Source: Candidatus Thioglobus sp. NP1 (GTDB taxonomy: Bacteria; Pseudomonadota; Gammaproteobacteria; PS1; Pseudothioglobaceae). Taken from it: 64,000 nucleotides of DNA. Position numbers and translations under genes: made by a program. Location of the stretch: positions 1,364,001 to 1,428,000 of the forward strand of contig NZ_CP023860.1 of assembly GCF_003326015.1 (NCBI RefSeq), in the 5' to 3' direction. Below are positions 5,456 through 36,043 of the stretch, piece after piece (position 1 is the first letter of the stretch; the number at the start of each line of letters is the position of its first letter). Under the pieces are notes generated by a model, which was not told the origin of the DNA, made no database searches, and saw only the letters and a list, made by a program, of their open reading frames with translations.

Positions 5456-6965
5456 GCAAACTATCCTCTTTCATTTCACCACTCATCATAAGACCAACTT
5501 GATTTATACTCACAGCATCAGTATCAAAAGGTCCTTGTAACCTTCCATTAAACATAACAGCGATACGGTCAGATAATTCAAAAATTTCATCTAAGTCTTC
5601 ACTAATTAGTAATACGCCTGCACCTTTCGTTTTAGCATTTATTATTTGCTGCTGAACAAAACTGATAGCACCTTCATCTAAGCCTCTTGCTGGTTTATTT
5701 GCAATGATAAAACGAGGATTATTAGATAGACTTCTTGCAAGGATTAACTTCTGAATGTTGCCACCAGACAACAATCTAGTTGAAGCAAACGGACCTTCGC
5801 ATCGAATATCATATTCTTTAATTAATTTTTCAGCATCTCTAACTGACTTCTTTTTGTCAATAATAAATCCTGATTTAGCCTTAGAGCGAAGCTCCTCGCC
5901 AAGGAAATTTTCCCATAGCTCCATTTCTCCTATGACGCCCTCTTTTGAACGGTCTTCTGGAATCCTTGCTACACCAGATTCAGTAAGATAACAGGGATCA
6001 TATTTTATCAAACTCTCTCCCAGTAACTTAAATTCTCCAGAGCTTGGAAAATTTAATCCTTGTAAGATTGAAGCTAGCCCGGCTTGACCATTACCTGCAA
6101 CTCCAGCCAAACCGATAATTTCTTTTTCATGTATCTTAAGATTGATATTAGAGAGTGGAGTTGATCCCTCAGTCACATCTAAACATACATTATTAAGCTC
6201 CACAACTGGCTTGCCTATTTTCAATTTTTTATATGCTGGTCGCGTAACTTTGCGTCCAACCATCATTTCTGCAAGCGATTCCTTGCTTGCCTCATTAGTG
6301 ACTACCTCTCCTACTAATTTACCTTGACGAAGAACTACAATTCGGTCACTAATTTCTAAGATTTCATTTAATTTGTGCGATATAAACATGATTGATAAAC
6401 CAGAATTTACCATTTCCTTGAGGACCTTGAAAAGCTGTTCAGTCTCCTGTGGAGTAAGAACTGCAGTAGGCTCATCAAGTATTAAAATACTTGCATCTCG
6501 ATAGAGTGCTTTTATTATTTCAACTCGTTGTTTTTCACCAACTGTTAAATCAGCTACTTTATCATCTGGGTTTATTAATAAGCCAAAACGTTTTGATAAT
6601 GCCTTAAGTTTTTTATAGGCTTGTTTTTTTTGACTCCAAAGTCTAGTTAAAGGCTCCGTGCCAAGAATAATATTTTCTAATACAGTGAGATTTTCTGCTA
6701 AAGTAAAATGCTGGTGAACCATACCAATCCCAGCATCTAATGATGCTCTTGTTGAGCCAGGCGTTAATCTCTGGCCTTCAACTTCGATAAAGCCTTTGTC
6801 ACAGATATAGTGTCCAAAGAGTATATTCATTAGTGTGGTCTTACCCGCACCATTTTCACCTAATAATGACAAAATTTCACCCTCACCAAGTGAGAGTGAA
6901 ATATTGTCATTTGCTACAACAGAACCAAAACTCTTACAAATTTTGGAAAATTGTAACTTCTTCAT
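5445..6965 (-). CDS. BMP-type ABC transporter ATP-binding protein (two nucleotide-binding domains)
   Basis: 506 residues with two fused ABC domains, NupO/YufO-like. Domain 1 has a canonical Walker A (GENGAGKTT, 36-44), a degenerate signature (LTVGEKQRVE) and Walker B ILILDEPTA. Domain 2 has a degenerate Walker A (GVAGNGQAG), signature LSGGNIQKL and an altered Walker B (FIIANKPARGLD). This asymmetry is usual for sugar and nucleoside importers of this class, in which only one site hydrolyses ATP well. The gene sits 9 nt after the binding-protein gene and overlaps the permease gene by 11 nt. Confidence 0.88.
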   Translation of the reverse strand: MKKLQFSKICKSFGSVVANDNISLSLGEGEILSLLGENGAGKTTLMNILFGHYICDKGFIEVEGQRLTPGSTRASLDAGIGMVHQHFTLAENLTVLENIILGTEPLTRLWSQKKQAYKKLKALSKRFGLLINPDDKVADLTVGEKQRVEIIKALYRDASILILDEPTAVLTPQETEQLFKVLKEMVNSGLSIMFISHKLNEILEISDRIVVLRQGKLVGEVVTNEASKESLAEMMVGRKVTRPAYKKLKIGKPVVELNNVCLDVTEGSTPLSNINLKIHEKEIIGLAGVAGNGQAGLASILQGLNFPSSGEFKLLGESLIKYDPCYLTESGVARIPEDRSKEGVIGEMELWENFLGEELRSKAKSGFIIDKKKSVRDAEKLIKEYDIRCEGPFASTRLLSGGNIQKLILARSLSNNPRFIIANKPARGLDEGAISFVQQQIINAKTKGAGVLLISEDLDEIFELSDRIAVMFNGRLQGPFDTDAVSINQVGLMMSGEMKEDSLHEA

Positions 6966-26979: not shown

Positions 26980-28896
26980 TTATTTGACTCTATTTGAGAT
27001 CAATTCATCAACGACACCTGGCTCTGATAAAGTAGAAGTATCTCCTAGATTAGCGTAATCATCCTCAGCTATCTTTCTGAGTATCCGCCTCATAATTTTT
27101 CCTGATCTTGTTTTAGGAAGTCCTGGTGCGAATTGAATTTTATCTACAGTTGCAATCGGTCCAATCTCTTTTCTAACCAAAGCAACTAAATCTTTTTTGA
27201 GCTCATCATTACCCTCAGTACCAGCCATTAAAGAAACATAAGCATAAATGCCCTGCCCTTTAATTTCATGTGGCATTCCAACAACCGCAGCCTCACTGAC
27301 ATTGCTATGCAGGACCATTGCAGATTCAATTTCAGCAGTACCGAGACGATGGCCTGAAATATTTAATACATCATCAACTCTTCCAGTTATCCAATAATAA
27401 CCATCTGAATCTCTCTTAACACCATCGCCAGCAAAATATTTACCTGGATAGGTTGAAAAATAAGCCTCTATAAATCGAGAATGATTATTATAAAGAGTTC
27501 TCATTTGACCTGGCCAAGATCTAGCAAGGACTAGAACACCCGATGCTTCACCATCAAGAACCTCTCCTTTCTCACTTAAAACCTGAGGTTCAACACCAAA
27601 AAATGGTTTTGAAGCTGAGCCAGGCTTTAATGGAGTTGCATACGGCATTGGTGTAATCATATGACCTCCAGTTTCAGTTTGCCACCATGTATCAACAACT
27701 GGACATCTTTTTTCTCCAATAACATTGTAATACCACTCCCATGCCTCAGGATTTATTGGTTCGCCAACTGTGCCTAAAATCTTTAAACTGGATCTTGAGG
27801 TCTTATTAACAAGATCATCACCAGCACCCATTAATGCTCTAATTGCCGTTGGTGCAGTATAAAAGATATTGACTTGATGCTTATCTACAACCTGCCAAAA
27901 CCTAGAGGCATCTGGATAGGTAGGAATACCTTCAAACATGAGAGTTGTAGCACCATTTGCTAGGGGGCCATAAACAATATAAGAATGTCCTGTTACCCAG
28001 CCAACATCTGCAGTGCACCAATAAATATCCCCTTCTTGATAATCAAAAGTGTATTTATGAGTCATAGCAGCATAAAGTAAATAACCACCTGAAGTATGAA
28101 GCACACCTTTTGGTTTTCCCGTTGAGCCTGATGTATAAAGAATGAATAATGGATTTTCAGCATCAAACATTTCACAAGGAAAATCAGTTGAGGCATCTTT
28201 TACAAGCTCATGATACCAAACATCTTTATCATTCCACTTAACCTCTCCTCCAGTTCTCTTAACAACAACAATATGATCGACACATTCACAATCCTTTGTA
28301 GCTTGATCAACATTAGCTTTTAACGGTATAGATTTTCCTCCACGAACGCCCTCATCAGCAGTAATAACTAATTTACACTCACTGTCCAAAATTCTATCTC
28401 TTAGAGCGTCAGGTGAGAAGCCTCCAAATACTACTGAATGAATTGCTCCAAGTCTTGAACAAGCTAGCATAGCAATAGTCGCCTCAACAATCATTGGCAT
28501 ATAAAGACAAATTCGATCGCCCTGTTTAACACCTAGATCTTTCATACCATTTGAAAACTTACAAACTCTTTGATGCAGTTCTTTATAGGTTATCGATTCA
28601 CTTGTGTTTGGGTCATCCCCCTCCCAAATAATTGCAATCTGTTCGGCTCTTTCAGGAAGATGACGATCTAAACAATTATAAGAAACATTTAAAGTTGCGC
28701 CTTCAAACCAAGCAATTTTGCCTTTATTAAAATCTACATCTGAAACCTTATCCCATTTTTTATCCCAATCAATAAAAATTTCTGCTTGTTTTGCCCAAAA
28801 ATCATCAGGGTTATTAATTGAATCGTCATACATTAACTGATAAGTTTGTGCATTAATTAATGGTTTTTTATCACTGTGCATTATTGGATATGTCAT
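26980..28896 (-). CDS. acs: acetyl-CoA synthetase
   Basis: 638 residues. It activates acetate to acetyl-CoA with ATP. Core motifs are [11 protein letters not shown] (P-loop-like), [15 protein letters not shown] and the C-terminal [11 protein letters not shown], whose lysine is the usual acetylation control site. Length and order fit the AMP-forming Acs family. It has a good ribosome site (AAGAGGAA) and leads an acs-transporter-nitroreductase run. Confidence 0.95.
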
Positions 28897-28980
28897 TTAA
28901 TTCCTCTTAAGATAAAAACATCAAAAAATCCATGTTACCAAACTCGTTGTAAAGAGTTGTAAAAAAAATTGAATTGAACA

Positions 28981-29012
28981 AAAAAAAATGACGCAAAGCG
29001 TCATTTTTTTAT
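28981..29012 (-). terminator. bidirectional-looking intrinsic terminator after rpoZ
   Basis: Perfect 7-bp stem ATGACGC/GCGTCAT with an AAA loop (28988-29004), flanked by A-runs on the left and a T-run on the right. It terminates rpoZ transcripts on the minus strand and insulates acs. Confidence 0.85.
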
Positions 29013-29029
29013 AAAAAATTTAAGAAATT

Positions 29030-29374
29030 TTATTCGTCTTCTTCCTTAATAGCTAAATCATCACTTTCTTGCTTAGCATCCAGAGTTGTTTCAGAAAGCT
29101 CATCCTTGACTTCAGTCATCATAGCATCTTGTACTAATTTATCCTGAGCATTGAGTTCTTCTTCCATTGCATACTCTTCAGTAAGAATAGAAGCATCAAT
29201 TAATCCAGCTTCAATTTCTCTTAGAGCAAGAACTGTTGGCTTATCTTTGCCAACATCAAGTGTAGTTCTATATCCTTGAGAATTTAGTTGATGAGCACGT
29301 TTTGCAGCAACTAAAACTAATTCAAATCTATTTTCAACCTTATCTAAACAATCTTCAACTGTAACTCTAGCCAT
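29030..29374 (-). CDS. rpoZ: RNA polymerase omega subunit
   Basis: 114 residues (E. coli 91). It assists assembly of RNA polymerase. [21 protein letters not shown] and [15 protein letters not shown] are diagnostic. The C-terminal third (from about residue 70) is an acidic extension rich in Glu and Asp. gmk and spoT, its common neighbours, are missing; instead it is divergent from dnaQ. Confidence 0.95.
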
Positions 29375-29438
29375 AATCTTAATTAACCTATATAGATCAA
29401 ATGATAAAATGAGGCAATTTTACGTTATTATTGCTATT

Positions 29439-30104
29439 ATGGAAAGACTTATTGTAATGGATACTGAGACTACTGGAATTGATCCTAAAGAGGGCCATCG
29501 AATTATTGAAGTTGGAGCGGTAGAAATATCTAAAAGAGAAATAACAACTTCTGAGTTTCATAAATATGTTCAACCTAATCGAAATGTTGGAGACTCTGTA
29601 AATATTCATGGAATAACAGATAAATTTTTAATTAATAAACCACAATTTGAACAAATATCAGATGATTTATTAACTTTTATAGATGGGGCTACTCTAATAA
29701 TTCATAATGCTCCATTTGATTTAGGATTCCTCAATAATGAATTAAAAATTATTGGAATTAAGAAGAAAATTGAAGATTTGTGTCCAGTCATTGATACATT
29801 GGAGCTATCTAAAGAACAAAGACCTGGAACAATGCACAATCTAGATGCATTGTGTCGGCGTTTTGGAATTGATACTAGTGCGAGAACAAGGCATGGTGCC
29901 CTTCTTGATGCCCAAATACTTGCTCAAGTATATATTGCTATGACTGGTGGACAGTCGATTCTTTTTAATGAAGATGAAAACATAAAAGCACAAACAAGTG
30001 ACCCATTAATAGTATCAAAAATTTTAGAAAATAAAGACAATATAAAAGTTATTTATGCAAATGAAGAAGAAGTTGAAACTCATAATAACTACTTCAAAAA
30101 CTAA
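29439..30104 (+). CDS. dnaQ: DNA polymerase III epsilon subunit (3'-5' proofreading exonuclease)
   Basis: 221 residues from the start chosen at 29439 (MERLIVMDTETTG), which aligns with E. coli DnaQ; an in-frame ATG at 29409 would add ten residues, and neither has a clear ribosome site. Exo I is DTETTG, Exo II VIHNAPFDLGF and Exo III HGALLDAQILAQVY. The C-terminal tail that contacts DnaE is present but diverged. The rpoZ-dnaQ gap is only 64 bp. rnhA, often its neighbour, lies elsewhere at 58146. Confidence 0.93.
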   Translation: MERLIVMDTETTGIDPKEGHRIIEVGAVEISKREITTSEFHKYVQPNRNVGDSVNIHGITDKFLINKPQFEQISDDLLTFIDGATLIIHNAPFDLGFLNNELKIIGIKKKIEDLCPVIDTLELSKEQRPGTMHNLDALCRRFGIDTSARTRHGALLDAQILAQVYIAMTGGQSILFNEDENIKAQTSDPLIVSKILENKDNIKVIYANEEEVETHNNYFKN

Positions 30105-30151
30105 TGATAAACCGATAACTTAAATAGAGTGTTTTTGCGGTAAATTAGGGA

Positions 30152-30179
30152 TTGACTAAGAAGTCTATCACAGTATAAT
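30152..30179 (+). promoter_or_regulatory. sigma70-type promoter of the Pro-Arg-His tRNA cluster
   Basis: TTGACT (30152-30157), 16-bp spacer, TATAAT (30174-30179), ending 10 bp before tRNA-Pro. No other promoter-like sequence is evident between the three tRNA genes, so they are probably one transcript. Confidence 0.85.
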
Positions 30180-30189
30180 TACACACCTT

Positions 30190-30266
30190 CGGAGTGTGGC
30201 GCAGTCTGGTAGCGTATCTGGTTTGGGACCAGGTGGTCAGAGGTTCGAATCCTCTCACTCCGACCA
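30190..30266 (+). tRNA. tRNA-Pro (TGG)
   Basis: 77-nt cloverleaf with encoded CCA. Acceptor CGGAGTG/CACTCCG pairs fully, the anticodon loop is TTTGGGA (anticodon TGG), the T loop is TTCGAAT. First of three tRNAs. Confidence 0.97.
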
Positions 30267-30315
30267 AATTATATAATTAAAGTGCAAGCCTAGACTTTAT
30301 TAAAGCAAAGTTATT

Positions 30316-30392
30316 GCGCCCATAGCTCAGCTGGATAGAGCAACGGCCTTCTAAGCCGTAGGTCATACGTTCGAATCGTATTGGGCGCACCA
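30316..30392 (+). tRNA. tRNA-Arg (TCT)
   Basis: 77-nt cloverleaf with encoded CCA. Acceptor GCGCCCA/TGGGCGC, anticodon stem ACGGC/GCCGT, loop CTTCTAA with anticodon TCT. Confidence 0.97.
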
Positions 30393-30407
30393 CTTTTTAG
30401 ATATTAT

Positions 30408-30484
30408 GGCGGGAATAGCTCAGTTGGTAGAGCCCCGGATTGTGATTCCGGTTGTCGCGGGTTCGAGCCCCGTTTCTCGCCCCA
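30408..30484 (+). tRNA. tRNA-His (GTG)
   Basis: 77 nt including encoded G(-1) at 30408 and CCA. Anticodon stem CCGGA/TCCGG, loop TTGTGAT with anticodon GTG, T loop TTCGAGC. A short stem TATTAGG/CCTAATA (30490-30510) follows it directly. The 3' two-thirds and this stem are duplicated, in decayed form, at 33607-33675. Confidence 0.97.
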
Positions 30485-30583
30485 CTTCCTATTAGGGATT
30501 CAGCCTAATACTCAACTAAAAAAAAGTCAAAAAGTTCTTTTGCGTGCTCTTTTGGGTGCACCCTATTAAGGTATAGTAGTTTT

Positions 30584-32077
30584 ATGAAGAAACTATTCCT
30601 ACTTTTAATACTACCCTTCTTCTCATTCCAAAGTTTAGCGGGCTCTTGTCCTGATGGCAGTGATCCAGTAAAGAGTGTCTCTGAAGATAGTTCTTATTAC
30701 GTCTACAACTGTGGTAGTGCTATTAATGAGCAATTATCTTCTTCTAGTTCAAACACAAAAGCAGTAGCGGGTATTAATATTGTGAATGACCCCAATATTC
30801 ACTTTTTCAAGCCACCACAAAAGCCATATCCCACAGGTAAATTATATTGGTTTGGACGGTTGTGGCAGATGGCAGATTTTAATAAGGATGGATATAGTGA
30901 TGTTCTTTACATAGGCACTATGAATCCAAATAATGTTGAATGGACTGGGGAAGATACTGGTGGGCTTTGTGGTGGTGGAGCTTGTAAAGGCAATAAACCA
31001 TTACCATCATTGTTTTTGGGTGATGCAAAAGGCAAACTTACCTACGTACCTCAGCTACTAATTGATAAACGTGAAGATAGTGGAATGTCACTGGGAAGAC
31101 AGCTTCTTGTTGCTGATTATAATAATGATAGTATTCTTGATTTTTATATCGCAGATACTGCAGTTGGTACACATAACGGTTTTAGGGATAGCTATTTTTT
31201 AAGTCAATCTAATGGTACTTGGCTGGAATCATCAAAAACACACCTAAGCCACTCTAATTTTGAAGTATTTAACCATGGCGCCGCAACGGGTGATATTGAT
31301 AATGATGGCGATATGGATGTTGTTATTACTGAAACTAACTGGAAAACAGGAACAGCTTTATGGTGTTTAATAAATGATGGAACAGGTTATCTAAATAAAC
31401 GTAAGTGTGGAGGTATTTTTTCTTTTGCCCTAGAACTTGCTGATATCGATGGTGATGGTTATTTAGACGTATTGCTAGGGGCACACGAATTTGAGAAAAG
31501 TATAGACTTCACAGGTATTGTTTGGAATGATAGTACGGGTAATTTTTATAAGCATAACAATACCCGCTTACCTCAACATAAAAAGAAATGGGGCACAGTG
31601 CCTGAAGTTTCAGCAGCTGATTTGGATAATGATGGTGACCTAGATATTGTATACAGTAGAGCTGGTGTTTTATATGTAGGCACAGCAATACAAGTCATAG
31701 AAAACTTAGGCAACAAGAGGTTTAAAGATCACGGAATATTTCCTTTAGTTGAGGCACCAGATGACTTCAAACCAACTCACGAAGGAAATGAATGGAATGA
31801 TTTTATTGAGGATATTCGATTTAGAGATCTGGATAAAGATGGAGATATCGATTTATATTTATCAAGCTCTATGTCACTTAAGACTGACGGTATGGTTTTA
31901 CTAAATCAGGGTGATTTTGATTTTGAGTTATTACTCCCTAATGCTGCTAAAAAGTATGTAACAATTGACTCCAAAACTCCCACATCTATAAGTGAAGAGG
32001 AAAAGGCAGAAGAGCAAGCAGTGTTAGATGAAATCGAGGCATTTGAAGCAGAACTTGCAGCAGAACTTGGCAAGTAA
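30584..32077 (+). CDS. secreted FG-GAP/VCBS repeat protein
   Basis: 497 residues. A Sec signal peptide (residues 1-19, cleavage near SLA-G) is followed by at least six calcium-loop repeats of DxDxDG type starting at D98, D178, D237, D287, D346 and D415 (e.g. DIDNDGDMD, DLDKDGDID). This is the FG-GAP/VCBS beta-propeller pattern of integrin-like surface or secreted proteins, often adhesive. The C-terminus (from about 465) is a Glu/Ala-rich helix. No sorting or autotransporter domain is visible. It lies between tRNA-His and its decayed copy, so it may be acquired DNA. Base composition looks less AT-rich than its neighbours (by eye). Confidence 0.8.
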   Translation: MKKLFLLLILPFFSFQSLAGSCPDGSDPVKSVSEDSSYYVYNCGSAINEQLSSSSSNTKAVAGINIVNDPNIHFFKPPQKPYPTGKLYWFGRLWQMADFNKDGYSDVLYIGTMNPNNVEWTGEDTGGLCGGGACKGNKPLPSLFLGDAKGKLTYVPQLLIDKREDSGMSLGRQLLVADYNNDSILDFYIADTAVGTHNGFRDSYFLSQSNGTWLESSKTHLSHSNFEVFNHGAATGDIDNDGDMDVVITETNWKTGTALWCLINDGTGYLNKRKCGGIFSFALELADIDGDGYLDVLLGAHEFEKSIDFTGIVWNDSTGNFYKHNNTRLPQHKKKWGTVPEVSAADLDNDGDLDIVYSRAGVLYVGTAIQVIENLGNKRFKDHGIFPLVEAPDDFKPTHEGNEWNDFIEDIRFRDLDKDGDIDLYLSSSMSLKTDGMVLLNQGDFDFELLLPNAAKKYVTIDSKTPTSISEEEKAEEQAVLDEIEAFEAELAAELGK

Positions 32078-32080
32078 ACC

Positions 32081-32112
32081 TCACTCACTCACTCACTCAC
32101 TCATTCATTCAT
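32081..32112 (+). repeat. tetranucleotide repeat (TCAC)5(TCAT)3
   Basis: Immediately after the stop codon of the FG-GAP gene: five exact copies of TCAC (32081-32100), then three of TCAT (32101-32112). It is the only such microsatellite noticed in the window. Confidence 0.95.
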
Positions 32113-32170
32113 GATTATTGATATGTCACTAGAAGATATTGTTGCATAGTAAGGCTTTGAGATATCTCTT

Positions 32171-33259
32171 TTAAGATGCTTTAAAAATATAAATTTTTCC
32201 ATCAATCCAGTTATCACCCTCTTTCCTCAATCTCACGTTATGAGAGTCAACTAATTTAAATCCATTTGAGGCAATATCTAAGATGTAACTTTCTGAGTGA
32301 GCATAGCGCGAACTTTTTAAAAGAGAATAACCTTCATCTTCTTGAATTTCAATTGAAAATATAAATAAAGAATTTTCATTACAAGACTTCTTTACTGCAG
32401 TAAAAAAATTTGTTGGCTCACCAATATATATAAACACATCTAGAGCAATAAACAGGTCAAATTTTTCCTCTAATAATTCTAACTGTTCAACAATATCACC
32501 AACTATTAAATTATCATAAACATCTAATTCTCTCGCTTTGTCTATCATATTTGAAGAGAGGTCAATTCCTGTTAAATTATCACTAATTTGCCTCAAATCA
32601 TGACCTGCCAGCCCAGTACCACAACCCAAATCAATTACTTTTTTAAAATTAGACCTCGAATTATTTGACTTATAAATAAATTCTTTAATAATAAAGGGAA
32701 GTTTGTATTGAAGTTTTTCTACTAAAGAATCATTAAATTTTTGAGCATAATCATCAAATAAATTTTTTACATACTCTTTAGGAGGCTCTTTACTTGTATT
32801 TCCAGTAAGTGAATTAATCATATGTTGAGGTATAGCGTAGTTTGGCTTCAGTGCTAGTGCTTTTTCATAATTCTGAATAGACATGTCAACCTCTCCAAGA
32901 GTTGCATAGCAACCACCAATCATATTAAATAGAAGTGCATCTTTGGGACTATTCTTTATTAATATTTCTAGCAAGTCTAATGCATCTGGAATTTGTCCTT
33001 TGGAAAAAAAATAAATAACGCTAAGAATTTTGTTAGTATGATTAACAGCAAACTCTGGCTTGATATTTACTACCTTTTTATAACTTCTTACTGCCATATC
33101 TAGCTGACCAAGCTTATGATTTGATTGGCCTAAATTATAATGAGCTTCACAATAGTTTGGTTTTATTGAAATAGCCTTCTCATAGAGGCTAATTGCCTTA
33201 TCAAATTGACCTAAACTAAAATAACTATTACCCCTTTTATTGAAAAATATATGCTTCAT
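32171..33259 (-). CDS. TPR repeat protein fused to a SAM-dependent methyltransferase
   Basis: 362 residues. The N-terminal half (about 1-150) holds tandem TPR units, e.g. FFNKRGNSYFSLGQFDKAIS and YNLGQSNHKLGQLDMAVRS, and a third around 112-145. The C-terminal half (about 160-362) is a class I methyltransferase with motif I DLGCGTG (210-216) and motif II GIDLS (231-235). The target is unknown; TPRs suggest a protein partner. It lies on the opposite strand to the FG-GAP gene inside the tRNA-His-bounded segment. Confidence 0.82.
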   Translation of the reverse strand: MKHIFFNKRGNSYFSLGQFDKAISLYEKAISIKPNYCEAHYNLGQSNHKLGQLDMAVRSYKKVVNIKPEFAVNHTNKILSVIYFFSKGQIPDALDLLEILIKNSPKDALLFNMIGGCYATLGEVDMSIQNYEKALALKPNYAIPQHMINSLTGNTSKEPPKEYVKNLFDDYAQKFNDSLVEKLQYKLPFIIKEFIYKSNNSRSNFKKVIDLGCGTGLAGHDLRQISDNLTGIDLSSNMIDKARELDVYDNLIVGDIVEQLELLEEKFDLFIALDVFIYIGEPTNFFTAVKKSCNENSLFIFSIEIQEDEGYSLLKSSRYAHSESYILDIASNGFKLVDSHNVRLRKEGDNWIDGKIYIFKAS

Positions 33260-33704
33260 TTTTATGATTTTAGATTAAGAATAATATTGTTAGATTAAAT
33301 TTTTTTTTGAAACACTATTCTAATCTAACAATAATAAAAAATACTAAATTTCAAATTTAACTCAGCTTCCTCGATTCACTAGTTAGCTAAAAAGGTGGTT
33401 GCCCCCTTATCTATAGCCATTTTTTTATTATAAAAAACGCACCTTTTTGCCTGCTCTTGAGTGTATTTTGAACTATAAAAGTGACTTTAATTCTGTATAC
33501 TACCCATTGATTATTTATGGACTGATTGTCCTTTTTTAATTGTAGGTATGGGCTTTGTGTATTTGTATCCTTTAAGTCAGCAAAGGGTCGCGCAAAGAAG
33601 TGAAGCTAGAGCCCCAGATTGTGCTTCCAGTTGTTGTGGGTTTAAACCCCGTTTTTCGCCCCACTTCTTATTAGGATCTAGATTAATAAAAAAGAGACTT
33701 TCAA
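33260..33704 (+). other. 445-bp gene-free region with inverted repeats and a tRNA fragment
   Basis: No convincing reading frame. It contains a perfect 12-bp inverted repeat ATTGTTAGATTA/TAATCTAACAAT (33286-33297 and 33321-33332), just upstream of the TPR-methyltransferase start, with a T-run in the loop. It also holds a 9-bp inverted repeat AAAAAGGTG/CACCTTTTT (33389-33397 and 33440-33448) and the decayed tRNA-His copy near its right end. It looks like degraded junction DNA plus the promoter region of the minus-strand gene. Confidence 0.6.
33607..33675 (+). pseudogene. decayed 3' fragment of tRNA-His (possible attachment site)
   Basis: Aligns without gaps to 30428-30496 (tRNA-His from the D-arm end through CCA plus 12 downstream bases), with 59 of 69 positions identical. 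Nine of the ten differences are G-to-A or C-to-T, i.e. toward AT. The 5' third of the tRNA is missing, two anticodon-stem pairs are broken and the T loop is TTTAAAC, so it is not functional. The arrangement (one whole tRNA, one 3' fragment as direct repeats) is that of attL/attR of an element integrated in a tRNA gene. Confidence 0.85.
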
Positions 33705-34649
33705 TTGATAAAAAAAATACTCAATGACAATCAAATAGTCAGATTTTTTAAATTACAAAGCTTTCAATCTAAAGCAATAACTTTAAATATCTTATCCATA
33801 GTTTTTTTTTCCATAATGGTTATTTTTATTCGAAAGGCAGCAGAAAACCTTCATATTCTTGAAGTTGTTTTTTTCAGAAACCTTTTAGCTTTTGTAGTGA
33901 TGATTCCAATATTAAAATCTACAGGCCTTTCTGCTATAAAAATGAATAATACTAAATTATTTTTTATGAGAGGTTTTTTTGGTGCTATTGGAATGCTTGC
34001 AGGCTTTACCTGCTTAACTTTAATACCGCTTGCTCAAGCTACTGCAATTAGCTTCTCAAAACCAATATTTATAACAATTGGCGCTACTATTTTTTTAGGT
34101 GAAATAATTAAAGCCAGAAGAATTGCCGCAATCATTATTGGCATTATTGGAATGCTAATAATTGTTCAACCCGGGGTCAATACATTTTCGTTTGGAATAA
34201 TACTTGCGATAATTGCAGCTTTAGCTCACTCAATGAACGCCTTAATTGTTAAAAAACTTACTCTCACTGACACCCCTCAAGCAATTATTACATGGATGGT
34301 AATAATTCTTATTCCTATTACTTTTATTCCAGCTATTCCAGTATGGGAGTGGCCAAGTTTAGAGACTTGGCTATACCTTTGGGGAATTGGCATTGTAGGA
34401 ACTCTTGCACATTTCACATGGACTAAATCCTACTCTATGGCTGAAATTACCAGTCTGGAACCAGTTGAATTTATAAAATTGCCAATTATGGCTCTATTTG
34501 GATGGATGATTTTTTCAGAAATTCCAGGTACTTGGACTTGGATTGGAGGGTTGATAATATTTATATCAACAATATACATAAGTCATCGAGAGTCAAAGGC
34601 TTCAAACTCTCTTAAGCCAAATGATGGCGCTCAAGAGCCAAAACTTTGA
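33705..34649 (+). CDS. EamA/DMT-superfamily transporter
   Basis: 314 residues, about ten hydrophobic segments in two EamA repeats, inner membrane. The start is TTG at 33705, since no ATG lies in frame before the first helix; AAAGAGAC upstream may serve as ribosome site. Motifs such as RNLLAFVVMIPIL, AHSMNALIVKKL and SLEPVEFIKLPIMALFGW fit the family. Substrate unknown. It begins about 30 bp after the tRNA-His fragment, so it marks the right flank of the possible island. Confidence 0.85.
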   Translation: MIKKILNDNQIVRFFKLQSFQSKAITLNILSIVFFSIMVIFIRKAAENLHILEVVFFRNLLAFVVMIPILKSTGLSAIKMNNTKLFFMRGFFGAIGMLAGFTCLTLIPLAQATAISFSKPIFITIGATIFLGEIIKARRIAAIIIGIIGMLIIVQPGVNTFSFGIILAIIAALAHSMNALIVKKLTLTDTPQAIITWMVIILIPITFIPAIPVWEWPSLETWLYLWGIGIVGTLAHFTWTKSYSMAEITSLEPVEFIKLPIMALFGWMIFSEIPGTWTWIGGLIIFISTIYISHRESKASNSLKPNDGAQEPKL

Positions 34650-34729
34650 TAGCTCTTAATCCTGTATTTTTTATAAGTTGAACTATAATTGGTATACTAG
34701 TTTGAGATTAAATTTAAATTGCAATTAAC

Positions 34730-35146
34730 ATGACTTCTTACAAAGTATTTGAACATCAAAAAAAATCCCTTAAAATTGTAAAAGTCGGCTTTGCTTGGTT
34801 AGCACCCTTCAACCCTATTTGGCCATTATTTAGAGGTTTATGGCTCATTTTTGTTTCATACATTTTTGTAATTCTTATTCTTGCGGGCATTGACTTTGAG
34901 CTATACGGGTTTGATGGCTATATAGATATTAAAAATTCTAATAATTTACAATTAGTTTTTTTTATTATCCAAATTGTTTTATTAATATCTCCTGGATTTA
35001 AAGGAAATAAATGGACCGAAAATAATTTAATAAAAAAGGGTTATGTTTTTTCATATGCAATAAAGGCTACAAATATAAAACATGCTTTTGAATTAATTAG
35101 TAATGAAGAGACTAATAAAGAAAATATCGAAAAGGAATCAACTTAG
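34730..35146 (+). CDS. DUF2628 family membrane protein
   Basis: 138 residues. The N-terminal pattern (Y-KVFEHQ, then VGFAWLAPFNPIWPLFRGLW) and the later GNKWTENNLIKKGY motif match the DUF2628 family of small inner-membrane proteins of unknown function. Two to three hydrophobic segments are visible. A terminator follows immediately. Confidence 0.72.
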   Translation: MTSYKVFEHQKKSLKIVKVGFAWLAPFNPIWPLFRGLWLIFVSYIFVILILAGIDFELYGFDGYIDIKNSNNLQLVFFIIQIVLLISPGFKGNKWTENNLIKKGYVFSYAIKATNIKHAFELISNEETNKENIEKEST

Positions 35147-35149
35147 TGC

Positions 35150-35196
35150 AAAAAAAATCCCACACAAGTTGATTAAAACTTAAAGTGGGAATTTTT
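35150..35196 (+). terminator. bidirectional terminator between convergent genes
   Basis: Stem TCCCAC (35158-35163)/GTGGGA (35185-35190), with inner AAGTT/AACTT pairing, flanked by an A-run on the left and TTTTT on the right. It serves the DUF2628 gene (plus) and the small lipoprotein gene (minus). Confidence 0.75.
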
Positions 35197-35210
35197 AATA
35201 AATCAAGTTT

Positions 35211-35357
35211 TTAAAAAATACTTGTTATTGCACCCCAAATACCACCAACTACTGATCCAACTCCATTAACTGCTGCTGCAGGAACTGCCATAACAGTATC
35301 CATACAACCACTTGCTAATAATGCCACTACAGCAATAAACAAAAATCTTAATTTCAT
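35211..35357 (-). CDS. small lipoprotein (48 aa)
   Basis: Short minus-strand gene, below usual length cutoffs: MKLRFLFIAVVALLASGCMD... with a clean lipobox LASG-C (cysteine at residue 18). The mature part of about 30 residues contains a glycine-zipper-like GVGSVVGGIWGAI. A good ribosome site (AGGAGA, 7-8 nt before ATG) supports translation and a terminator lies downstream. Size and layout recall entericidin-type lipoproteins, but sequence likeness is weak and no function is claimed. Confidence 0.75.
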   Translation of the reverse strand: MKLRFLFIAVVALLASGCMDTVMAVPAAAVNGVGSVVGGIWGAITSIF

Positions 35358-35536
35358 CGTTAAATCTCCTAAATTGATTAAATATTATTATAAAGTACTT
35401 TAAATTAACAAAACAATCAAATATTAACTTTATTCTCCAAAAAAAATTACACTTTGACACATAAAAAAGAAACTTATGCTAAATAAAGCCTTGTATCGTT
35501 ATAATTGATTTAAATAATTTATTAAAAAAAATTAAA

Positions 35537-36043
35537 ATGCGTAAATATTTAAATATAGTTTTGTTTTCTTCCTTGGTACTATTTATTAATAATTTAAATG
35601 CTGATTCTCTTTCAGAAGAGGCGGCAAAAAAAGGGATTAATGAAACATGTGGATTATATTTAAATCAAATTGAAGAATCTTATGGCTTAAATGGCTTAAA
35701 CATAACATTCGTAAATCCAAATAATCCATCAGAATATCCTTCACTTCATATTTCATCTAAAAAATATAATAATGGTAGCTCAACATTTGCTGCAACATTA
35801 GTTCCTGATGGTGAATATTGTTATTTATCAACTATAGTTGTTACTGCAATTCAAAATCAAAGTTGTAATGAAATTGCTGAGCTTAAATTACAAGAAGATC
35901 CTGAACTTCAGTCATCCTCTTACTCGGAGAATGACTATAATATATTAACTCCAATTGATAACAGCTATCAAATTATTCTTACAGCTTCTGGAGAGGGAAG
36001 TTGCACGATGTCAGAAATCAGAATGCTCTGGCCAGGTCGATAA
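35537..36043 (+). CDS. secreted protein, function unknown
   Basis: 168 residues. A Sec signal (residues 1-22, cleavage near LNA-D) is followed by a mature region with four cysteines (C38, C95, C107 and C158 approximately), so disulfides in the periplasm are plausible. No family is recognised. It stands alone, about 100 bp before htpX and 180 bp after the small lipoprotein gene on the other strand. Confidence 0.65.
   Translation: MRKYLNIVLFSSLVLFINNLNADSLSEEAAKKGINETCGLYLNQIEESYGLNGLNITFVNPNNPSEYPSLHISSKKYNNGSSTFAATLVPDGEYCYLSTIVVTAIQNQSCNEIAELKLQEDPELQSSSYSENDYNILTPIDNSYQIILTASGEGSCTMSEIRMLWPGR

Follow-up and report, generated by a model that had tools for sequence, protein, structure and literature searches.

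The window analysed here is a stretch of 64,000 nucleotides (G000:C1:1364001-1428000), part of the single 1.69-Mb contig of Candidatus Thioglobus sp. NP1, a member of the genus Candidatus Pseudothioglobus whose genome is referred to as G000. Within it a tRNA-Pro at 30190 and a tRNA-Arg at 30316 are followed by an intact tRNA-His (30409-30484, all located by ARAGORN). Behind the latter lie a gene for an FG-GAP repeat protein and, in the opposite orientation, one for a TPR-repeat methyltransferase, and these are followed by an incomplete second copy of the 3' part of tRNA-His and by a transporter gene. This gene content is as described in an earlier reading made from the letters alone (the sequence-only reading), which proposed that the two tRNA copies bound the remnant of a tRNA-integrated element. 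The evidence presented below, namely the element ends, the integrase of sister species, the empty sites of relatives and the flank of one of them, makes it almost certain that 30485-33606 integrated here as a unit, now decayed, with left and right attachment sites (attL and attR) and cargo, and that it belongs to a Pseudothioglobus family of tyrosine-integrase elements specific for tRNA-His.

The intact tRNA and the displaced 3' fragment form direct repeats flanking the segment, as is found at genomic islands. Positions 33607-33675 align without gaps to 30428-30496 with 59 of 69 bases identical, and of the ten changes, counted by eye, nine run from G or C to A or T and one from A to C; the alignment and its bias had been reported before and were reproduced here. 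Searched against the whole 1.69-Mb genome, tRNA-His with its flank gives the displaced copy as the best match after the tRNA itself (86%, E 1e-16), which excludes chance. The copy is real and decayed, as had been claimed, being called a tRNA neither by ARAGORN nor by Rfam at E values up to 1 (28000-36000). The displaced copies of relatives, among the matches listed, start at about tRNA position 13, 20 or 29 and extend through the 3' end. A second full-length tRNA-His, also called by ARAGORN, stands beside the site in G007 (L135, 14005-14080) and in G035 (L156, 12331-12408). A comparison of composition, suggested by the sequence-only reading, gave no clear separation of the segment from its surroundings.

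Both tRNA copies adjoin recognisable element ends, a left end (LE1) at tRNA-His and a right end (RE, type A) at the displaced copy, and the attL/attR geometry proposed earlier is thereby borne out. The nhmmer models of these ends were built from ten copies (LE1) and from four copies in four other genomes (RE), none of them from the window's genome. The LE1 model has a single match in the window, directly after tRNA-His. The long RE match runs into the displaced copy, and the only other match of that model is its own attachment-site (att) tail on tRNA-His (21 bases, E 0.0032). In 20 shuffled windows, searched with default filters, the best scores were 8.5 bits for LE1 and 7.1 bits for RE. RE extends approximately 270 bp to the left of the displaced copy and is 82% identical to the corresponding sequence of G005 and G020 over some 340 bp including att. 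One correction to the first description is that a recognisable element end precedes the displaced copy.

LE1 contains two direct CTTTTGCGTGC-like arm-type repeats and RE contains one, as does the RE of G020; these repeats are putative binding sites of the integrase. Taken alone the repeat is a weak signal, since the window has two occurrences of the 11-mer with one mismatch, a number that 10 of 100 shuffles also reach. A looser form of the pattern occurs at 27 places with up to two mismatches; at three of these there is no more than one mismatch, and all three lie in LE1 and RE. A second-type left end (LE2) to the right of the displaced copy was considered and rejected, the model match there having an E value of 0.88. 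RE ends of the tRNA-His type with att copies were also seen on two contigs unjoined to the tRNA-His site, L150 (G026 C1) at 5955-6100 and L134 (G006 C19) at 2098-2243, of which the first also carries a tRNA-Lys and the second a tRNA-Pro(GGG).

Relatives were searched in 83 genomes of the family, 29 of them within the genus. In 20 of the 29 the sequence of the tRNA-His site was retrieved and mapped, the remainder (G010-G013, G017, G021, G024, G030 and G032) having no strong tRNA-His match among the matches listed. For most of the relatives the assembly is a draft or comes from a metagenome, and several of these assemblies are broken at att copies; the contig order used for G005, G025 and G026 is an inferred one. 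Three of the 20 sites (G014, G015 and G019) are empty, with no gene between tRNA-His and the right neighbour, as expected of the target of a tRNA-integrated island, and neither end model matches there. Since LE1 is missing from G015 and G019, it cannot be explained simply as the tRNA operon's native end. Eleven genomes (G000, G005-G009, G020 and G025-G028) show a displaced 3' copy of tRNA-His, either at the site or near a contig start; five (G016, G018, G022, G023 and G031) have extra genes, with no second copy detected at blastn E values up to 0.001; and in G029 there is only a second-type left end. Most of the relatives read carry other cargo at the site, which, together with the empty sites, supports the insertion first proposed. 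The order in G020 is tRNA-His, LE1, a truncated integrase gene, other genes, RE type A, the displaced copy and a homologue of the gene at 34730. What lies to the right of the displaced copy in G020 can be aligned with the sequence after the single tRNA-His of G015 and G019; this is the relation of attB to attR expected of an insertion, and the end types are those of the window. Contig C158 of G008 (L136), one of the eleven, was counted as occupied; there the hotspot has its right side inverted with respect to tRNA-His, with the copies on the other strand, which could be a genuine inversion between att copies or an error of assembly.

The empty site predicted by the sequence-only reading, with tRNA-His joined straight to the transporter at 33705, was found in part: empty sites exist, but they lack the transporter as well, and the predicted junction was not seen. 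The transporter is present at the site in G000 and in the clade of G005, G023, G025, G026, G027 and G031 on the tree. It is absent from the site in G007, G015, G018, G019 and G020, each read on a contig running from tRNA-His to the 34730 homologue, and these five carry it elsewhere. Because the transporter varies between species, the conserved neighbourhood resumes only at about 34730. A more decayed att-like stretch precedes the transporter in G023, G025 and G027 (alignment read by eye). The transporter is probably older cargo, so the hotspot would extend past the coordinates of the sequence-only reading, which cover one unit.

Between ends of the same kind, sister species carry a tyrosine integrase (PF00589, phrog_1), here named int1, which has 347 amino acids in G027. 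PF00589 proteins lie directly downstream of tRNA-His in G027, G026 and G009, and LE1 precedes int1 at tRNA-His in G027, G026 and, with int1 truncated, G020; the integrase of G005 is cut by the contig end. LE1 was found at 13 places in 10 of the 83 genomes and RE type A at five places in five. The shared left end follows the occupied tRNA-His itself and, in many cases, displaced copies, in front of which stand a small number of different end sequences (types A to D). What comes after LE1 is an int1 frame at three of the 13 places (one truncated), a short int1 relic at two (G026 C32 and G025), FG-GAP at two, one transporter unit at two, and something other or unclear at four. In the window FG-GAP occupies the position after LE1 that is held by the integrase in autonomous relatives, as seen in the junction alignment. 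A 3.7-kb contig of G004, from another genus, carries a tRNA-His 3' end, a broken int1, an FG-GAP protein and a 25-base piece of tRNA-His.

At E values up to 1e-40 the int1 family is represented in 13 of the 83 genomes and four of 11 genera. Members also lie beside tRNA-His in G080 and, as a pseudogene, in G041 (positions among the matches listed), and others lie at tRNA-Lys (G000, G018 and G021), tRNA-Arg (G007) and tRNA-Pro (G020), suggesting that the family uses several tRNA genes. The member at tRNA-Lys in G000, outside the window, belongs to an apparently complete element (G000:C1:957252-973217; L181, L182) with an integrase at 957409-958422 and a displaced tRNA-Lys copy at 973156-973217 (98% over 62 bp); C-terminal integrase fragments are located at 962434-962535 and 973331-973504.

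The features of the locus are collected in Table 1. In the mechanism that we propose, int1 would bind the direct arm repeats in LE1 and RE and would carry out recombination between the 3' half of tRNA-His and the same sequence carried by a circular form of the element. This would restore tRNA-His on the left and leave the displaced 3' copy on the right, and repeated insertion at the tRNA would push older units rightwards to form an array. The decay of the displaced copy means that the window unit is probably immobile now.

Table 1. Features of the tRNA-His locus (positions are those of the window).
Feature	Position	Strand	Evidence
tRNA-His (GTG), intact; integration target, 3' half = att core of attL	30409-30484	+	ARAGORN
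Element left end LE1	30485-30564	+	nhmmer model of other genomes, 81.6 bits, E 2e-24
Arm-type direct repeat CTTTTGCGTGC in LE1	30537-30547		
Arm-type direct repeat CTTTTGGGTGC in LE1	30549-30559		
Cargo FG-GAP repeat protein, 497 amino acids, secreted by the look of its N-terminus	30584-32077	+	Pfam FG-GAP_3, 2.3e-26
Cargo TPR-repeat methyltransferase, 362 amino acids	32171-33259	-	Pfam TPR and Methyltransf_11
Element right end RE (type A)	33339-33606	+	nhmmer model match 33339-33627, 195 bits, E 3.4e-59
Arm-type repeat TTTTTGCCTGC in RE	33444-33454		
att' (attR): displaced, decayed tRNA-His 3' copy with about 12 following bases	33607-33675	+	59/69 identical; E 1e-16 genome-wide
EamA-type transporter, probable cargo of an earlier unit at this site	33705-34649	+	

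The segment itself holds no integrase, as had been noted, and tblastn found no int1 relic in 30481-33720 (best E 0.48). Units of this kind are shared between species. In G027 an int1 element adjoins tRNA-His, and behind it follow a second att, LE1 and an FG-GAP unit. The window is 89.8% identical to this second unit over 1.7 kb, from tRNA-His position 13 through FG-GAP, and the junction from LE1 to FG-GAP is without an integrase in both, with about two dozen extra bases in G027. At fourfold degenerate sites FG-GAP differs between the two at 40 of 180 positions (0.22), compared with 438 of 782 (0.56) in seven core genes, which points to exchange after the species split. Similarly, an LE1-transporter unit that is second in line in G005 and first in G007 is 99.2% identical over 1,423 bp from tRNA position 20, with two differences at 131 fourfold sites as against 508 of 834 (0.61) in the core genes, which are 78% identical between these two species. 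From these two cases it follows that integrase-free units pass between species, whether through an integrase acting in trans or through homologous recombination. We lean, with modest confidence, towards the window unit being a passenger without an integrase of its own, brought in or spread with the help of int1-bearing elements. The sequence-only reading had offered a fossil, a passenger or a duplication; the last is discarded, and the evidence leans to a unit already integrase-free when spreading without settling between the first two. On a wider scale the site may be a cassette-like system on a tRNA gene, in which small integrase-free units, whose standard ends are the tRNA-His att, LE1 and an RE bearing arm repeats, are added serially at tRNA-His and exchanged between species, with the integrase supplied in trans by a few autonomous members; this is put forward tentatively.

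Several observations weigh against a passenger history. The fourfold-site divergence of FG-GAP is low against all 14 genomes compared (0.19-0.44), so slow change could explain part of the 0.22, and our confidence was lowered slightly on this account. The right borders of both shared tracts lie away from att, the FG-GAP tract ending just past the gene and the transporter tract inside the next gene of G005, and homologous recombination or later deletion fits these borders as well as site-specific integration does. The displaced copy before the transporter in G005, the position it has in the window, carries a type C right end, so different elements border this place in the two species, and the FG-GAP unit of G027 has only a partial right end. 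Finally, the methyltransferase has a fourfold-site divergence of 0.59 to G027 and 0.29 to G005; its history thus differs from that of FG-GAP, and two units may have fused to give the segment. Fusions of this sort are in keeping with the fragments of right ends found next to cargo genes in G027, G026 and G031.

The strongest rival is a fossil in place, in which an int1-bearing element integrated here, its integrase was later deleted between LE1 and the cargo, and the unit never moved without one. Loss in place does occur, as the relics directly after LE1 in G026 C32 and (by alignment to G026) G025, the truncated int1 of G020 and the broken int1 of G004 demonstrate, and att' and RE of the window are decayed. 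The lack of any relic in the segment, the same integrase-free LE1-FG-GAP arrangement in G027 and the apparent exchange of FG-GAP after the species split nevertheless make this history rather unlikely. Alternatively, cargo could have been exchanged by homologous recombination in the repeated tRNA-His, att and LE1 stretches and the conserved flanks, with no integrase in the recent events. The left borders of the shared tracts do fall within the tRNA-His/att stretch, which is near-identical in all copies, and the right borders are off att. The units, however, stand first in one species and second in another (FG-GAP in the window and G027, the transporter in G007 and G005), as serial insertion predicts, and we consider recombination of this kind improbable. 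A tandem duplication of tRNA-His with later decay and no mobile element, for which the full-length second genes of G007 and G035 might speak, can be set aside, because an RE sequence common to four other genomes, instead of the 5' half of tRNA-His, lies upstream of the displaced copy.

FG-GAP and the methyltransferase occur together at the site in two of the 20 genomes (G000 and G027), and a homologue of the methyltransferase is found there in eight, frameshifted in G023. Its closest relative in the genome scan is 91% identical and lies on a P. aerophilus contig. For the FG-GAP protein no relative was found among solved structures at E values up to 0.001. Among the named matches in a Pfam scan of 20 array proteins, mostly cargo, are FG-GAP, an autotransporter with Ig-like domains, a pentapeptide protein, an OmpA-type barrel, a surface adhesin, EamA, a redoxin and cytochromes. 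Several of these look like surface or secreted proteins, which suggests that the cargo changes the cell surface. The first 60 or so FG-GAP residues (30584-30760) are seen again, with 38-74% identity, at the beginning of many other open frames of the genus, as though a single secretion module had been attached to various bodies. An FG-GAP gene also lies near tRNA-Ser(GGA) in G024 (L164, 7871-9507) and in G019 (L192, 14206-16521), a possible further tRNA site for such cargo.

Little links the unit to phages. In a PHROGs scan of eight array proteins only the integrase matched integration families and four proteins, FG-GAP among them, matched nothing; three more, the pentapeptide protein and the methyltransferase among them, had matches to families whose function is unknown or general. 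A phage-collection search with 30100-34700 matched 1,135 records, the match lying in the tRNA stretch among the matches listed. Three exact end patterns, searched as a sign of viral packaging, gave 0 matches in IMG/VR, and the integrase relatives in that collection are at most 35% identical. Two IMG/VR contigs (L225 and L226; 50 and 46 kb) hold FG-GAP relatives, 63% and 53% identical, among nucleotide-sugar genes; their viral nature is unconfirmed. A Terminase_6N search of both gave no match and the control of a Gp23 search matched nowhere, so the two contigs are not counted here in favour of a phage route.

Small-genome marine bacteria often carry variable islands without a visible mobility gene. 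In the present case the ends of one such unit are legible, sister species have a matching integrase at the same tRNA, and an integrase-free unit can be seen to have been exchanged between species recently. Apparently orphan island genes thus become a testable system with one integrase, defined ends and a defined target, and the ends offer a way of finding further units. For the tRNA-His site no published report was found in the open-licence literature, covered in part and by titles and the starts of abstracts. A paper on Arctic Pseudothioglobus genomes (PMC12421898) does not use the terms tRNA and integrase in its available portions.

Elements of this kind, targeted to tRNA genes, are known in general. 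The genomic islands found at tRNA genes with a tyrosine integrase by Islander (PMC4383910) are alike in having a regenerated tRNA at one end, a displaced fragment at the other and integrase relatives at the same site; the window unit differs in being 3.1 kb long, in lacking an integrase and in belonging to repeated units with shared ends at one tRNA. Tycheposons, quoted as 4-200 kb in size (PMC10872708), are similar in their tRNA border, in the tyrosine recombinase of autonomous relatives, in their cargo genes and in their occurrence in marine bacteria. The window unit, at tRNA-His, has no recombinase and at 3.1 kb falls below that size range, and so departs from them on both counts. The additive island fGI-2 of Ca. 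Methylopumilus (Methylophilaceae) resembles the present site in its repeated 3' ends of one tRNA gene and its variable cargo; there the gene is tRNA-Lys(ctt) and the repeats are of 20 bases, whereas here the att copies are longer and the left and right ends are defined (PMC10872708). Integrase-free cassette arrays (CALIN) have been described as hitchers, and tycheposons are listed among proposed phage satellites, in the same source (PMC11389934). If an integrase supplied in trans acts on arrayed gene units that lack one, the tRNA-His site would work much as CALIN do, with the differences that here att is the end of a tRNA gene, the integrase is of phage type and a unit may hold several genes.

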